A DNA stretch of 43,008 bases, from the IMG/VR virus record IMGVR_UViG_3300021437_000036, positions 1 to 43,008 of that record; one strand, written 5' to 3'. The translations under genes and the position numbers were made by a program. Shown here piece after piece: positions 13,608 through 19,580 of the stretch (the first letter of the stretch is position 1; every line of letters begins with the position of its first letter). This DNA comes from a virus. The notes beneath the pieces are model-generated. The model saw only the letters and a program-made list of their open reading frames with translations, ran no database searches and was not told the DNA's origin.

Positions 13608-13910
13608 ATGAATGAAGACGAAAAGATAGTTTCCCTCCCATTTAGGAAGACCCCCCGAATCCTGTCTCAGAATATGACCCTGGACTCGATCATAGCAGAC
13701 CACATCTCTCTGGTAGTAAGGATGCACCAATGGAACCTCGTGCGCGCTGCAAAGGCCCTAAAGATCTCCCGCATGACTCTCTACCGCTATTTGCACAAGT
13801 ACAAGATAGTTCGTCACGAGCGTCTGGAGCACAATAAGAGGCACAACCTGTACTACAACAATCAGAACGTAAAAAGGCTCTCAACTGTAGGAAAGACGAG
13901 TAGAACATGA
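13608..13910 (+). CDS. Fis-type helix-turn-helix protein
   Basis: 100 residues. Residues 38-67 (MHQWNLVRAAKALKISRMTL then YRYLHKYKI) match the C-terminal DNA-binding domain of Fis and NtrC-type activators. The basic Asn-rich C-terminus probably adds DNA contact. First gene of the late operon, overlapping the next by four bases. It may regulate late genes or mark the packaging site. No strong ribosome site precedes the ATG; a second in-frame ATG is not present nearby. Confidence 0.8.
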   Translation: MNEDEKIVSLPFRKTPRILSQNMTLDSIIADHISLVVRMHQWNLVRAAKALKISRMTLYRYLHKYKIVRHERLEHNKRHNLYYNNQNVKRLSTVGKTSRT

Positions 13911-14740
13911 ATTTTAGCGATGGCTCCCGACTCAAGAATCTCTACGAGCATTTCATGCACGGCAGTTACGCCGACAAGCTGAAGGACTTTAGCGACCCAC
14001 TATCAATCATAAACAGATTCCCAGTGGAGTACCGTCCGTACGTATTGGCAGTACCGGATGAACTCTTATGTCTAACAGAGGAAGAGCTCCAGAAGACAAT
14101 AGATCCTTCAGATACTCTTAGAAAGCTAAGGATAGCTTTCTGGGGGAACTACGACCGGATTTGCAGCGACGTAACCATTGGCAAAGAGGCTCCCAGTACA
14201 ACAAGTGGGGAAGACCACAAAGGCTCAAAGCATATCGCCAAGGCCAAGAGCAAGTCATTCTATTTCGCTGAGATTTGCTGGGGGATTTGCAGTCCGACGG
14301 CATTTGAGAAAATAGTGGTTCACAATCCAGCGGCATTTGCCTTCATTCTTACTCCCCCTCCCAACTACGACAAAACGATGGAAGGGCTACTTGAAAAGGG
14401 GATGGCTCGTCTTACAGAGATCATGGATATTCCTATTTATCAGACGGATAAGAATGGAAAAAGATTACCTGACGTCAAAGCAGCGGCTCTTGTCTTAGCT
14501 GCTATCAAGATGGTCGACGACCGTGTAAAAGGCGGGGCTATTCAGCGGCTTGAGAGTAAGCAGCTCACGGTTAACGCTAACATGAGTATGGCTAAGTATG
14601 CGGATGAGAAGAACGCGGACGCACTGCTTGCGAGGATTAAAGAGTTAGAGATGTTGACGGAGAATCCGACCGCTAGTGGGCGTGAGACTTTGCAGATCAG
14701 TCGCAGGAATCGGGGAGAGGTAGAGGTGATGGATGAGTGA
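13907..14740 (+). CDS. Probable small terminase subunit
   Basis: 277 residues, directly upstream of the large terminase and overlapping it by eight bases. The C-terminal half has DVKAAALVLAAIKMVDDRVK and GGAIQRLESKQLTVN, a pattern I associate with small terminase subunits of podoviruses; the middle has NYDKTMEGLLEKGMARLTEI. These proteins form rings that recognise the packaging site and load the motor. The N-terminal 60 residues are unlike the usual helix-turn-helix; the Fis-like protein upstream might provide DNA reading. Assignment rests on position and pattern. Confidence 0.65.
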   Translation: MNFSDGSRLKNLYEHFMHGSYADKLKDFSDPLSIINRFPVEYRPYVLAVPDELLCLTEEELQKTIDPSDTLRKLRIAFWGNYDRICSDVTIGKEAPSTTSGEDHKGSKHIAKAKSKSFYFAEICWGICSPTAFEKIVVHNPAAFAFILTPPPNYDKTMEGLLEKGMARLTEIMDIPIYQTDKNGKRLPDVKAAALVLAAIKMVDDRVKGGAIQRLESKQLTVNANMSMAKYADEKNADALLARIKELEMLTENPTASGRETLQISRRNRGEVEVMDE

Positions 14741-17093
14741 CCTACCTCAGGGCCAGGTCCGGTTACTTCAGGAGAGGGCGCAACTATTAGAGAAAAAGTT
14801 AGAGCTTCAGGAGAAACTACCGCACCTATATGGCTGGAAGTGGTATCCCTGGGCCTGGGAGTTTTTCAAAAGCACGGATCGATACTGCTTCCTGGTGGCG
14901 GCAAACCAAATCAGTAAGTCATCCAGTCAGATAAGGAAGTGTATTGAGTGGGCGGGGAATCCGGACATATGGCCAGCGTTGTGGCGTACCCGACCTCGTC
15001 AGTTCTGGTACCTTTACCCATCAAAAGAAGTGGCACTGGTAGAGTTTGAGAGTAAGTGGGTTCCGGAGTTTTTGCCTCGGGATAAGGAGCATCCTACGTA
15101 CGGGTGGCACTTTGACAAAAAGAGATTGGCTTTATACTTCAACAGCGGCGTGGTTGTATATTTCAAGTCGTACATGACGGATGTGAGTAACCTTCAGACA
15201 GCATCGGCTCACGCTATTTGGTGTTTTGCCGCTGGGACAAAGGTAGCTACTCCAGATGGGGATAGGAATATTGAAGAAATAGCCGTAGGCGATATGGTTT
15301 ACGGGGGGTCTGGTGTTCCAAGGAAAGTATTGGCCCTTCCGTCTAGAGGAGTATCTGAGGTTGCAGTAACTGTTTTATCTAATGGACAGGTAGTAAAATG
15401 TACGTTAGACCATAAGTTCTTAACCGAGGAGTTACAGTGGGAAGAGCTTTACAAATTGAACAGTATTACGAACCTAGCAACAGCGAGGGTTACAGGCTAT
15501 CAGAGTCAGTTAAATACCTTGGGATGTCATTCAGAAGATATCCAGAGCATAGAGATAGAAGACAAAGATATTTCAAAACAGGAACTGGGAGATATAAGAA
15601 CAGCCACCTTCACAAGGTTATTTGGGAATTTGAGATTGGCAAAGTACCTAAAGGGTATGTCGTGCACCATAAAGATGGTGATCCTTCAAATAATGAACTT
15701 AGTAATTTGGAACTTATTACAAGAGCAAACCATACTAGAGAACACAAACTTGAAGAATGGTCTTCTGGACGTCTTGGAGAACTACAGAACAAGACCTGTG
15801 TTGAATGTAAGAAAGAGTTCACCACCAGGACTACTCAGAAAACAACTGCTAAGTTTTGCTCTCAAGAGTGCAGACGTTGGAGTGGTGCAGTTATTAAAAA
15901 GTGTAATCATTGCGGTAAAGATTTTCGTGCTAGAAAAGACAATAAAAAAGCGTATTTTTGTAGTAGGAAATGCACTAGCTCTTCCTCAAGAAAGAGTGTA
16001 TTGCCTTAACGTAGAAGAGGATCATTCCTTCCAAGTATGTGGAATTATTGCTAAAAATTGTGATGAAGAACTACCGTTCGGTCTTTTTTCCGAAATTAAT
16101 ATGAGGATCGCGGGCGTAGCCGGGTATTTTTCTATGGTATTCACGGCGACCTTAGGCCAGGAAGAGTGGCGTAGGACTATGGAAGACATAGGTAAGAAGA
16201 CGGAGATGTTTGTCCATGCGTGGAAGAAGTGCGTGTCAATGTACGAGTGTATGTATTACACCGACGGAACAAAGAGCCATTGGACTGAGGCTAAGATCAA
16301 GGAAATCGAATCAACCCTCACTCCATTGGAGATACTTAGGCGTGTACGGGGTAGGTTTGTTGTGGCCGAGGGGTTACAGTATCCAACTTTCAGGGCCGCG
16401 TATTATCCAGAGGGAAACTACTATGAAGAAACAAAGTGGGCGTTACCGAAGGATTGGTTGGTTTACATTGGTGTGGATATTGGTGGCGGTGGAAGTAGCC
16501 ACCCTCCGGCTATTACATTCCTGGGTGTAGACCCCCGATACACGAAAGCCCGAGCATTCATGACTTGGAGGGGTTTCCCCTCAACCGTGTACACGGTTGA
16601 GGACATCTACAAGCAACTCAGAAACTTAGTAGAGCAGTACGAGCTTAATCAGAGACATTTTGAAGTTAGGTACGACTGGGCGTCTAAGGACTTTGGGACG
16701 GTAGCGGGTAGGGATGGGTTTCCGGTATTTCCGGCAGACAAGACTCGGGATTCGGGGAAGATGGTACTGAACTCTTTGTTTAAGAGTATGGCGCTTTTAT
16801 GTTCGGATGAGTTGTCAGGGCCGGTTTTATATGAGGAAATCAGATCACTAACTGAGGATGCTTCTAAGACCACGGCTAAGGACGATGCGATTGATTCTCT
16901 CAGGTATGCGGCAACGAGTGTTCCGTGGGCGTGGGATGCGATCATGAAGGATGCGACGAAAGAAAAGCCGAAGGCTCCCCAGGCTGAGTACAAGCCAAAG
17001 TATAGAGGGGATGATGGGTCTGGGGCTGAGTTATTTTTATCGGACAGTATAAATGATGAGATAGGGGATTTGAATGGGTTTGCAGAATTTTGA
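14733..17093 (+). CDS. Large terminase subunit with intein
   Basis: 786 codons; exteins are residues 1-163 and 443-786, joining to 507 residues, a normal size. Variant Walker A is VAANQISKSSS (Lys62). Walker B is split by the intein: HAIW before, CDEELPF after, so splicing restores IWCDEE. The RNase H-like nuclease has VDIGGGG (first Asp), RYDWASKDFG and DDAIDSLRYA for metal ions. It packages DNA into the capsid by ATP hydrolysis and cuts concatemers. The intein must splice for the motor to work because it separates the ATPase catalytic carboxylates from their strand. Confidence 0.95.
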   Translation: MSDLPQGQVRLLQERAQLLEKKLELQEKLPHLYGWKWYPWAWEFFKSTDRYCFLVAANQISKSSSQIRKCIEWAGNPDIWPALWRTRPRQFWYLYPSKEVALVEFESKWVPEFLPRDKEHPTYGWHFDKKRLALYFNSGVVVYFKSYMTDVSNLQTASAHAIWCFAAGTKVATPDGDRNIEEIAVGDMVYGGSGVPRKVLALPSRGVSEVAVTVLSNGQVVKCTLDHKFLTEELQWEELYKLNSITNLATARVTGYQSQLNTLGCHSEDIQSIEIEDKDISKQELGDIRTATFTRLFGNLRLAKYLKGMSCTIKMVILQIMNLVIWNLLQEQTILENTNLKNGLLDVLENYRTRPVLNVRKSSPPGLLRKQLLSFALKSADVGVVQLLKSVIIAVKIFVLEKTIKKRIFVVGNALALPQERVYCLNVEEDHSFQVCGIIAKNCDEELPFGLFSEINMRIAGVAGYFSMVFTATLGQEEWRRTMEDIGKKTEMFVHAWKKCVSMYECMYYTDGTKSHWTEAKIKEIESTLTPLEILRRVRGRFVVAEGLQYPTFRAAYYPEGNYYEETKWALPKDWLVYIGVDIGGGGSSHPPAITFLGVDPRYTKARAFMTWRGFPSTVYTVEDIYKQLRNLVEQYELNQRHFEVRYDWASKDFGTVAGRDGFPVFPADKTRDSGKMVLNSLFKSMALLCSDELSGPVLYEEIRSLTEDASKTTAKDDAIDSLRYAATSVPWAWDAIMKDATKEKPKAPQAEYKPKYRGDDGSGAELFLSDSINDEIGDLNGFAEF
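15222..16058 (+). mobile_element. Intein in the terminase Walker B motif, 279 residues
   Basis: Starts at Cys164 with block A CFAAGTKVATPDGDRNIEEI and AVGDMVYG. Block B is CTLDHKF (Thr224, His227: TxxH). Block F is VYCLNVEEDHSFQVCG, block G is IIAKN ending in Asn442, followed by Cys443 as the +1 nucleophile. The usual penultimate His is Lys here. The splicing core is about residues 164-235 plus 420-442; the 190 codons between do not look like an endonuclease in this frame because the endonuclease is read in another frame. Self-splicing is inferred. Confidence 0.92.
15437..16009 (+). CDS. HNH homing endonuclease nested out of frame in the intein
   Basis: 190 residues from GTG at 15437, with GAGGAG five bases upstream; an in-frame TAA at 15413 shows it is not an extension of anything. 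HNH core: HLHKVIWEFEIGKVPKGY, then VVHHKDGDPSNNELSNLEL and ITRANHTREH (His77/78, Asn85/86/90, His99/103). Two CxxC...CxxxC zinc knuckles follow (Cys121, 124, 141, 145 and 156, 159, 175, 179). The ORF ends with TAA at 16007-16009 inside intein block F. It should cut intein-less terminase genes to spread the intein. The terminase frame is also open through all of it. Confidence 0.9.
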   Translation: MGRALQIEQYYEPSNSEGYRLSESVKYLGMSFRRYPEHRDRRQRYFKTGTGRYKNSHLHKVIWEFEIGKVPKGYVVHHKDGDPSNNELSNLELITRANHTREHKLEEWSSGRLGELQNKTCVECKKEFTTRTTQKTTAKFCSQECRRWSGAVIKKCNHCGKDFRARKDNKKAYFCSRKCTSSSSRKSVLP

Positions 17094-17364
17094 GGAATTA
17101 AAGCAGTTGAGAGAGTTGGGTGTAAGTAAAGCCAAGCTAGATGTCTGTCAGGACTTCAGCGACCAGACTAAGTCTCATGTGTTTGTGACGGAAGTGGAGT
17201 TCTATCAGAAGGAAAACCCGATCCAAGTTACTTTTGAGCAAAATCCCGAGGCTATGGAATTAACGGAAAAATCTGTTAAAGTTGAAAGGTCGGACTTGGA
17301 CGAGACTTTTTTAACTGATCCGTATGAATTCGAGTCTCAGATTGCTAAAAAGGAGAATGAGTAA
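17074..17364 (+). CDS. Small acidic protein between terminase and portal
   Basis: 96 residues, overlapping the terminase end by 20 bases and the portal start by one. AGGGG precedes the ATG. Helical N-terminus (FEELKQLRELGVSKAKLD), a beta segment (HVFVTEVEFYQKENPIQVTF), then a Glu/Asp-rich end. No family recognised. It could be a head-assembly cofactor. Confidence 0.65.
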   Translation: MGLQNFEELKQLRELGVSKAKLDVCQDFSDQTKSHVFVTEVEFYQKENPIQVTFEQNPEAMELTEKSVKVERSDLDETFLTDPYEFESQIAKKENE

Positions 17365-19580
17365 TGGCACAGAGCTACAGCCCCCAGGAGCTTGATAGAT
17401 TGTTAACGAGTAGTAAGGAAGCTGATAAGAAGCTATTTGCGGAAATGCGTAACAACTTGATGTTGGTTGCGGGTCAGCACTACGCGAAGCAGGGCTGGAA
17501 GGAATTTGAAGGTAAGGTTCGGGGTTCGGACAGCGTTACTCCTGAGCAGCGCGTACGTCTTACGATGAATCACGTGCAGAAGATTATTAAGCGGTATGAG
17601 GAAAATGTATTTACGATGGCTCCTGGGGCCCATGCCGTTCCCCAGAACGACAAGGAACTACAGGACAGGAAGTCTGCGGAGCTAAACAATTCAGTTTTAT
17701 CAGCAATTAAGCAGTCGACAAACCACAAAGAAGAGCTTTTGAGTGATCTAGAGGACTTCTTTCGCATTGGAGAGGTGGCTTGTAAGGTATTTTGGGATGA
17801 ACACGCAGGTAAATACATGGGTACTCAGCCCGAACTTGACGAGAACGGGATGATGGCTGTGGATGAAGAGGGAAACCCGAAGCAAGCAATCCCGAAGTTT
17901 TCGGGCGAGCTTAAGTTTGAGCGTATTTATGGGTTTAACCTACTCAGGCCTAAGGAAGCACAGACTCGTGGAGAGTGTGCGTGGCTTGGGATAGAGAAAA
18001 TGGTGAACATCACTACTTTGAAGAAGAAACTACAGGCCGAAGGCAAGGAAGACTTAGCAAAGAAGATAGATGTGAACAATAAGAAGACTTTTGTGGTCTT
18101 TAATAACGTCGACGGGTCATATACTGACTCTAAAGATGAAGTAATGGTTCGGGAGATCTATTTTAAGCCGTGCATGGCGTATCCTGAGGGATATTTCTTC
18201 TATATGTATGAGGAATTGGTGCTTTGGGAGGGTATTTTGCCCCATGGGATCTTCCCGATCATCTGGGAAGGGGCTGAAAACATCCAAACAACCCCTAGAT
18301 CCTTCTCTCCGATCCGTCATATGAGGCCTTATCAGGCCGAAATCAACCGTTCTGCTAGTAAGATTGCTGAGCACCAAATTACCCTTGGGGATGACAAATT
18401 GGTCACTTTTTCGGGGTCAAAACTGTCAAAAGGGTCTGATTTACCGGGTGTTCGTCACATTATCGTGAGTGGAAACCAGGAACCGACGGTTATGGCGGGA
18501 AGAAGCGGGGAGCAGTATCTTTCGGTGATGCAGTCGAAGATTGATGAGCTATATATGGTGATGGATGTGGAAGCTGATGGGCTAGAGAAGGCTCAGCAAG
18601 ATCCGCAGGCGTTGCTGTTTGCATCGATGAAGCGTAAAAAGAAATTTTCTAAGTTTGCTACTCGGTTTGAAAACTTTTTAATTAATAAATATCAGACTGC
18701 TCTTGATATTTTTAGAAAGTCTGCTCCAGATGATTATGTAGTTAACGTGATCGGAAAGCAAGAGCAGATTAATATGGCAGAGCTTAGAGCAAGTGGCCTT
18801 GAGCTTGGGAGCCGTATTACGCTTGAGCCTGCAAGTGACGACGTAGATGCACTTTATGGTAAGCAAATGGTTTTAGGAAACATCATTCAGTATTTAGGTG
18901 GAAATCTTCCTCAGGAAGATTTGGGTAAGATTGTTAGAGCTATGCCTTTGCTTGAGGGTGAAGAGGCTCTTAGTGATCTGACTATGAACTACGACATTGC
19001 AACGAATGTTATGCTTGCTCTTGACCGTGGAGAGACTCCTCCGATGGGTGAGTATGAAGATCATATTTATATGGTTAAGAAACTCACTCACAGAATGAGC
19101 CAGGCTGACTTTACTTTGTTAGCTCCAGAGATCCAGAACAACTATAAAACGAGAGTGTTACAGCACCAGCAAGTAAATGAGCAAATGCAGCAGCAGTTGG
19201 CTCAGATGAACGCAGGACTAATCCCTACTTCAGGTCCGTTGATCGGGGTAGATTTTTACGTAACAGATCCCCAAAACCAAACACGCACGAGACGCGCACG
19301 TATTCCAATGGATGCCGTACGCGACTTGATTAATAAACTCGAGCAACAGGGTACAACCGTACAACAGCTAGAATCGCTGCCTGAAGCTGAGCGAGCTAAA
19401 CTAGGTCAACAACAAGCACAAGCAAGTGCAGGAGGACAAGATGGAAGTAACGGACAACAGCAACCAGCAGTCGCAGTCGCAGACCCAGGAGCAGTCGCAG
19501 CCGCAAACGGAGCAGGCGCAGGCGGGGAATTTACAGGCGCAGTCACAGGGGAACCAGGAGCAGTTGCCCCAGTCGGGTAA
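17364..19580 (+). CDS. Portal protein (P22/podovirus-like)
   Basis: 738 residues, GGAG before ATG. Place between terminase and scaffold, length, and features such as GFNLLRPKEAQTRGECAWLG, a wing region with RPYQAEINRSASKIAEHQ, a long stem helix and a Gln-rich helix (HQQVNEQMQQQLAQM) fit podovirus portals. Twelve copies would form the DNA gateway at one vertex. The last 47 codons, Gly/Ala/Gln-rich, overlap the scaffold gene in another frame, so the C-terminal tail may be dispensable or shaped by the overlap. Confidence 0.85.
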   Translation: MAQSYSPQELDRLLTSSKEADKKLFAEMRNNLMLVAGQHYAKQGWKEFEGKVRGSDSVTPEQRVRLTMNHVQKIIKRYEENVFTMAPGAHAVPQNDKELQDRKSAELNNSVLSAIKQSTNHKEELLSDLEDFFRIGEVACKVFWDEHAGKYMGTQPELDENGMMAVDEEGNPKQAIPKFSGELKFERIYGFNLLRPKEAQTRGECAWLGIEKMVNITTLKKKLQAEGKEDLAKKIDVNNKKTFVVFNNVDGSYTDSKDEVMVREIYFKPCMAYPEGYFFYMYEELVLWEGILPHGIFPIIWEGAENIQTTPRSFSPIRHMRPYQAEINRSASKIAEHQITLGDDKLVTFSGSKLSKGSDLPGVRHIIVSGNQEPTVMAGRSGEQYLSVMQSKIDELYMVMDVEADGLEKAQQDPQALLFASMKRKKKFSKFATRFENFLINKYQTALDIFRKSAPDDYVVNVIGKQEQINMAELRASGLELGSRITLEPASDDVDALYGKQMVLGNIIQYLGGNLPQEDLGKIVRAMPLLEGEEALSDLTMNYDIATNVMLALDRGETPPMGEYEDHIYMVKKLTHRMSQADFTLLAPEIQNNYKTRVLQHQQVNEQMQQQLAQMNAGLIPTSGPLIGVDFYVTDPQNQTRTRRARIPMDAVRDLINKLEQQGTTVQQLESLPEAERAKLGQQQAQASAGGQDGSNGQQQPAVAVADPGAVAAANGAGAGGEFTGAVTGEPGAVAPVG

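Follow-up and report, generated by a model that had tools for sequence, protein, structure and literature searches.

An HNH endonuclease gene overprinted within an uninterrupted terminase intein

Described inteins and HNH endonucleases

In textbook inteins, the endonuclease is a domain of the same polypeptide as the splicing domain, production of the nuclease is tied to splicing and the two parts constrain each other. The locus described here departs from this plan. It lies in a virus sequence of 43,008 nucleotides (IMG/VR record IMGVR_UViG_3300021437_000036), analysed over its whole length and referred to below as the window. I-HmuI, encoded in a group I intron, has the same HNH core as the window endonuclease, which differs in being overprinted and carried by an intein. 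Fractured split inteins, reportedly described by Dassa et al. in 2009 (as cited in PMC10448857), are said to have a free-standing endonuclease gene between their halves. There too the endonuclease is a separate protein with its gene between the two intein parts, whereas the window intein occupies one uninterrupted frame.

The TerL inteins of mycobacteriophages are bifunctional, with an in-frame homing endonuclease (Kelley et al. 2016, PMC5050341). Like the window intein, they have a Hint domain with the endonuclease between blocks B and F, and their sites are terminase catalytic motifs including Walker B (PMC5050341). However, their endonuclease is an in-frame domain, whereas that of the window is encoded as a separate protein in another frame, opposite a nonsense-like linker. 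The closest published precedent is the ShiLan domain, an HNH read out of frame within a phage gene that is uninterrupted and has no intein (2025, PMC11855218). Its authors found no intein or intron motifs and proposed that the inserted segment is retained in the protein (PMC11855218). The ShiLan and window loci share an HNH ORF out of frame in an uninterrupted host gene, zinc knuckles, an HNH start at GTG, a sporadic distribution read as homing and, as checked in the sequence of ShiLan gp65, the same -1 phase. On the other hand, the ShiLan HNH barely matches the profile of the window HNH, and Hint profiles gave no significant match on the ShiLan insert, whereas the window and its relatives have a complete Hint domain around the HNH.

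A 2025 preprint by Gosselin et al. on actinophage inteins of 'non-canonical architecture' is cited beside the frequent overlapping frames of actinobacteriophages (PMC11855218). Judging from that citation, it may describe nested-HNH inteins; its subject as cited is actinophages, whereas the nested class reported here spans many hosts. A full-text literature search, whose reach did not extend to Gosselin et al. 2025, returned no description of an intein with a nuclease nested out of frame inside it. The first-pass annotation of the window had called the arrangement 'not a described class'. This needs qualifying by the published out-of-frame HNH of ShiLan, which lacks an intein, and by a preprint that may describe the class.

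The terminase intein and the HNH gene of the window

The terminase frame had been proposed to run uninterrupted across an intein at 15222-16058, and it does: a single ORF (14733-17093, 786 aa) is open from end to end in the ORF list. The coordinates proposed for the locus were all confirmed against the ORFs and the sequence. The features in the terminase frame are as follows.

14733..15221, + strand: 163-aa N-extein of the large terminase; its last residues, ...SAHAIW, immediately precede a Walker B-like CDEE (ORF and insertion context)
15222..16058, + strand: intein of 279 codons, from Cys1 (TGT, 15222) to Asn279, followed by the +1 Cys (Pfam)
15222..15260, + strand: intein block A (CFAAGTKVATPDG), with C1 invariant (sequence)
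15384..15425, + strand: intein block B region, with TxxH (T61, H64) (52-intein alignment)
15494..15989, + strand: intein linker of the terminase frame, with the HNH gene printed over it; subject to drift and predicted to be disordered (low pLDDT; substitution pattern in relatives)
15990..16058, + strand: intein blocks F and G (RVYCLNVEEDHSFQ ... IIAKN) (Pfam, intein-half detection, AlphaFold)
16059..17090, + strand: C-extein, terminase from Walker B to the nuclease domain, with the +1 Cys first (phrog_2)

Pfam places Hom_end_hint/Hint_2 on residues 164-213 of the terminase (blocks A-B) and Intein_splicing on residues 210-442, and gives no match to the N-extein (14733..15221) alone. The assignment of the host protein comes from its C-part, which matches phrog_2, terminase large subunit (4.5e-9). 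Upstream, a 277-aa ORF (13907-14740) without a Pfam or PHROG match overlaps the terminase start, where the small terminase subunit would sit. The intein nucleophile, TxxH, terminal Asn and +1 residue are all in one frame with the host protein, and C1, T61, H64 and N279 are invariant in 52/52 aligned inteins, with Cys or Ser as the +1 residue. In the AlphaFold model of the window intein, the Hint core (residues 1-89 and 250-279) has a pLDDT of ~90-97 and the linker is mostly below 60, except for one predicted helix. Foldseek places this model closest to the gp41-1 and DnaB inteins and also matches DnaE and RecA inteins; the best PDB match is gp41-1, a member of a split-intein family.

Three more familiar carriers are ruled out for the window. 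A group I intron with an HNH ORF is contradicted by the open host frame and by Rfam, which gives no intron match over 14000-18000 at E <= 1; a fractured split intein by the presence of both halves on one ORF (14733-17093); and a bifunctional intein with an in-frame endonuclease by the -1 frame of the HNH. It could also be argued that the intein has lost splicing and that the terminase simply keeps the insert as a loop it tolerates, the fate suggested for the ShiLan domain. The penultimate residue of the window intein is Lys where His is usual. However, the splicing residues are kept throughout the 52 inteins, the Hint core is modelled at a pLDDT of about 95, and the insertion sits in the ATPase/nuclease active-site motifs of an essential enzyme, all of which makes a retained loop very improbable.

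The second set of features belongs to the HNH gene.

15413..15415, + strand: TAA that closes the HNH frame upstream of the GTG start (sequence)
15426..15431, + strand: Shine-Dalgarno GAGGAG of the HNH gene, within the intein coding sequence, at 5-nt spacing (sequence)
15437..16009, + strand: HNH endonuclease gene, GTG to TAA, 190 aa, -1 relative to terminase and intein (PF13392, phrog_15471)
15665..15709, + strand: HNH core HHKDGDPSNNELSNL (H77, H78, N86 and N90 invariant in 59 sequences)
15797..15871, + strand: first zinc knuckle (C121, C124, C141, C145; cysteines invariant)
15902..15973, + strand: second zinc knuckle (C156, C159, C175, C179; kept in a five-sequence alignment)

The overprinted HNH gene inside an uninterrupted intein is real. 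The complete out-of-frame ORF claimed at 15437-16009 has its own GAGGAG and GTG, an upstream TAA, an HNH_3 domain and two zinc knuckles. Its product matches PF13392 HNH_3 (E = 1.4e-17) and phrog_15471 (7e-23), contains two CxxC...C pairs and has both the catalytic core and the zinc-binding elements of an HNH homing endonuclease, with a mean pLDDT of 88.8 in AlphaFold. I-HmuI (1u3e) is its only significant PDB sequence relative (E = 3.7e-4) and also the top Foldseek match of the model, though a weak one (E = 0.066). Since the gene starts just past block B and ends within block F, which its TAA stop (16007-16009) overlaps, it occupies the usual position of an intein endonuclease but in another frame. 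The true start could differ, because the GTG sits 19 codons 5' of the start of the conserved HNH domain.

A double open frame of this length is improbable by chance. Across the HNH gene, 4.4 stops are expected in the terminase frame, which is open in 0.045% of 20,000 synonymous-codon shuffles (P = 0.00045); with the codon usage of the neighbouring genes, 6.2 stops are expected (P = 0.0003, or 0.03%). The earlier estimate of 1 in 10,000 was of the right order, but slightly too strong. The third frame of the gene holds 27 stops (28.8 expected), so that -1 is by far the easier phase.

Relatives with the same layout and selection on the two frames

IMG/VR and GTDB genomes were searched with HNH proteins only, and intein N- and C-parts were then sought in all frames. 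In this HNH-based set, both intein halves were detected at 88 distinct loci, of which 77 have one continuous intein ORF with the HNH at -1, 9 have separate ORFs and 2 have the HNH in frame. A scan starting from the intein, the ranking of which is biased towards similar linkers, gave the nested layout in 62/62 distinct loci. The union of both sets comprises 124 non-redundant nested TerL inteins from IMG/VR, GTDB and cultured phages, which places the layout in at least 120 other phages. The cultured phages include Acinetobacter phage Highwayman and Tetrasphaera phage TJE1; the layout also occurs in the complete genome of Rhodobacteraceae phage LS06-2018-MD07, in the gut scaffold MT838676 and in archaeal MAGs (loci L095 and L105). 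The two-frame layout is thus present in relatives, in the same phase and in complete genomes of cultured phages. An HNH in frame with the intein, which the first-pass annotation had named as counter-evidence, occurs only at two distant loci (L139 and L141). The arrangement is real but, at 124 non-redundant loci, very widespread and no one-off. Searches started from TerL-type members found no nested HNH in other host genes; the HNH of an Erwinia phage, catalogued under 'DNA ligase', was rejected as a case of another host, because it only touches the edge of the ligase gene. The HNH feature is absent from the annotation of the deposited genomes of Highwayman, TJE1, LS06 and Vibrio phage 1.238.

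Over the 24,948 HNH codons of the 124 nested cases, there are 0 stops in the intein frame and 2,457 in the third frame, although the zero is partly true by definition of the one-frame class and the fair measure is 77/88. For a single copy, the chance of an open frame is mostly a few percent; across 62 clusters, synonymous shuffling gives an expectation of 146 intein-frame stops. In the corresponding frame of free-standing HNH relatives there are 2-12 stops, and most relatives with split inteins have 4-14; L093 and L094, whose frame is broken, have none or one. In a Planctomycetota MAG (L128:1036-3102), the HNH is nested in a TerL intein in the other out-of-frame phase. Its own intein frame has 0 stops, where 8.3 would be expected (P = 0.0005); the usual frame has 6. 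Because free-standing and split relatives carry stops, and L128 is open only in its own intein frame, the open frame follows the intein and is not a property of the HNH gene.

In a single metagenomic contig with homopolymer A/T runs near the 3' edge, two compensating indels from sequencing or assembly could be suspected of having displaced a normally in-frame HNH domain. However, layout and phase are alike in the 124 non-redundant loci, including Highwayman, TJE1 and the complete LS06-2018-MD07, the HNH has a start, a Shine-Dalgarno site and an upstream stop of its own, and selection acts on its frame. Such errors are a negligible explanation for the window and, on the sequences compared, the assembly-error reading is refuted for the class.

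The selection is seen in the substitutions of 20 pairs, which number 1066/841/1792 at HNH codon positions 1/2/3, and also in close pairs (7/0/23 for L086/L084; 4/8/19 and 4/9/38 for others). In the HNH frame, 879 changes are silent and 367 are replacements, whereas in the intein frame 1086 are replacements and 266 silent, because HNH third positions are intein second positions. Judged by these patterns, the HNH protein is conserved, and the intein linker drifts yet stays open. The drift agrees with the AlphaFold model, in which the Hint core is confident and the linker has low pLDDT. The expectation that the linker would have to tolerate a nonsense-like sequence is likewise supported, its sequence being near-arbitrary by substitution pattern and disordered by prediction.

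In 121/124 cases, a start codon (ATG in 112) is available after the upstream stop and before the HNH domain, against 45 (ATG in 10) for control spans inside the gene, and a Shine-Dalgarno match of at least 4 nt precedes the HNH start in 59/124, against 11/124 in control spans. Slippery heptamers upstream of the HNH show no clear enrichment (17/124 against 10 in control spans). With starts and Shine-Dalgarno sites enriched and heptamers not clearly so, internal initiation is the best supported route by which the HNH would be translated separately. Programmed -1 frameshifting of terminase ribosomes, yielding an N-terminase/intein-N/HNH fusion and no free HNH protein, would reach exactly the near-universal -1 phase, but it is highly unlikely given the contrast between these three signals, and L128 lies in the other phase. 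Moreover, the phase is accounted for by stop density: about 2.4 stops are expected per HNH gene in the -1 phase and about 20 in the other. The abundance of K, R, E, D and N in HNH proteins gives the third frame its ~20 stops, whereas the -1 phase has only ~2.4, which are easily avoided. For the same reason, the shared phase does not prove a single origin, since -1 is the feasible phase and is also used by the ShiLan HNH of another subfamily. In the HNH tree, nested forms are clustered but do not form one clade; too few of its branches are supported to count the origins of nested, split and free-standing forms.

Mobility, split relatives and implications

Whole-terminase and C-extein searches of IMG/VR and of the phage collection found no close relative of the window terminase and hence no empty site for its own intein. 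A precise occupied/empty pair is provided by a relative, at another TerL site than that of the window. The terL gene of Highwayman contains a 981-bp insert (L006:2220-3200) absent from the near-identical terL of Acba_21 (empty site L154 near 1414), a closely similar and likewise cultured Acinetobacter phage, so that DNHYIDA/LRYAL in Acba_21 corresponds to DNHYIDA/[327 aa]/CRYAI in Highwayman. BP10 was rejected as the empty site because its terL differs, and Acba_21 was used instead. Outside the insert, the two proteins differ at two residues, one of which is the +1 position: Leu at the empty site and Cys, needed for splicing, at the occupied one, as co-conversion would give. The insert is found in 1/112 phage records matching the Highwayman terL query. 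Across the class, the insertion point is TerL Walker B in the window, L051, L084 and L086, nuclease motif I in L043 and L101, and motif III in most cases; Pfam terminase families cover most N-exteins. Free-standing HNHs of the same kind lie beside or near intein-free terL in EauM-23, PAE1, Shemara and BP10 (L162, L163, L164, L007), phages of different hosts, which is consistent with terL as the target. The sporadic occupancy suggests that the HNH may cleave intein-free terL. At another locus (L088:2200-3260), near-repeats of one host-protein segment (RYDLCNFEYTTFK[S/N]LGHYQK) flank the HNH, which suggests that the end of the target was duplicated around the insertion.

The HNH might instead assist the terminase in packaging, like that of HK97-type cos phages, and have no role in homing: nearly all hosts are TerL, free-standing homologues adjoin terL in PAE1, EauM-23, BP10 and Shemara, and HNH proteins do act in packaging (Kala 2014, as cited in PMC12613952 and discussed in PMC10448857). 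A packaging role is very unlikely here, given that the presence of the insert is sporadic, that the same kind of HNH occurs at three different TerL motifs and within an intein, and that, among solved structures, the nearest by sequence is the homing enzyme I-HmuI.

The best reading, which we consider highly probable, is a splicing-competent intein at TerL Walker B, overprinted with the gene of an HNH homing endonuclease that is translated separately. The computed support consists of the layout, its conservation, the maintenance of the frame, selection on the HNH frame, starts with Shine-Dalgarno sites and the precise empty site in a relative, from which we infer protein splicing, internal initiation in vivo, terL cleavage and homing. 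Ribosomes in the terminase frame would translate a Hint splicing domain with its halves joined by a ~160-residue disordered linker, and the intein would excise itself and ligate the terminase halves. Other ribosomes would initiate internally (GAGGAG-GTG, 15437) in the -1 frame and produce the 190-aa I-HmuI-like HNH protein with two zinc knuckles. This protein would cut intein-free terL alleles, and repair would copy intein and nuclease gene together, co-converting the flanking residue needed for splicing. Selection would keep the sequence of the HNH protein and keep the intein frame free of stops, leaving the linker sequence otherwise free.

Separate TerL-IntN, HNH and IntC-TerL ORFs, with an HNH of the same kind as in the window, are found in CL2, Vibrio phage 1.238 and seven further loci (L072, L083, L107, L113, L114, L121, L124), and most separate-half relatives carry stops across the intein frame. 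Wherever detected, the C-half keeps one and the same frame, +1 with respect to the HNH (9/9 distinct loci, plus CL2). In the deposited records, the C-half ORF of the split terminase intein of Lactobacillus phage CL2 (L165) is unannotated, as is the HNH of the split terminase intein of Vibrio phage 1.238.B (L158). Brochothrix phage BL3 (L159) has a split intein with an HNH remnant. In a Methanimicrococcus MAG, a single in-frame TAG directly precedes ATGATG where the HNH gene ends (L094:2988-2996), which may be either a fresh split intein or a TAG read as pyrrolysine. The split relatives, BL3 and L094 would fit a series from nested to split to HNH-less inteins, without fixing its direction. In the step from nested to split, after the linker frame had ceased to matter, one stop and an internal start would give separate halves with a free-standing nuclease between them. 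That a virus-wide family of terminase inteins has overprinted endonucleases as its standard mobility module, and that split inteins derive from the nested state, is a tentative proposition towards which we would not yet lean.

In the proposed arrangement, each activity would have its own protein and its own frame on the same DNA, and the nuclease would be freed from the splicing reaction. One stretch of DNA would thereby be both the nuclease of a selfish element and its disguise. It also offers an example, rare in nature, of a long overlap whose frames are under different selection, one for its sequence and the other almost solely for being free of stops, and a possible route from contiguous to split inteins. 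Nuclease genes hidden in this way have been missed in deposited phage genomes, and the many natural inteins that appear to tolerate very long arbitrary linkers may be useful for protein engineering.
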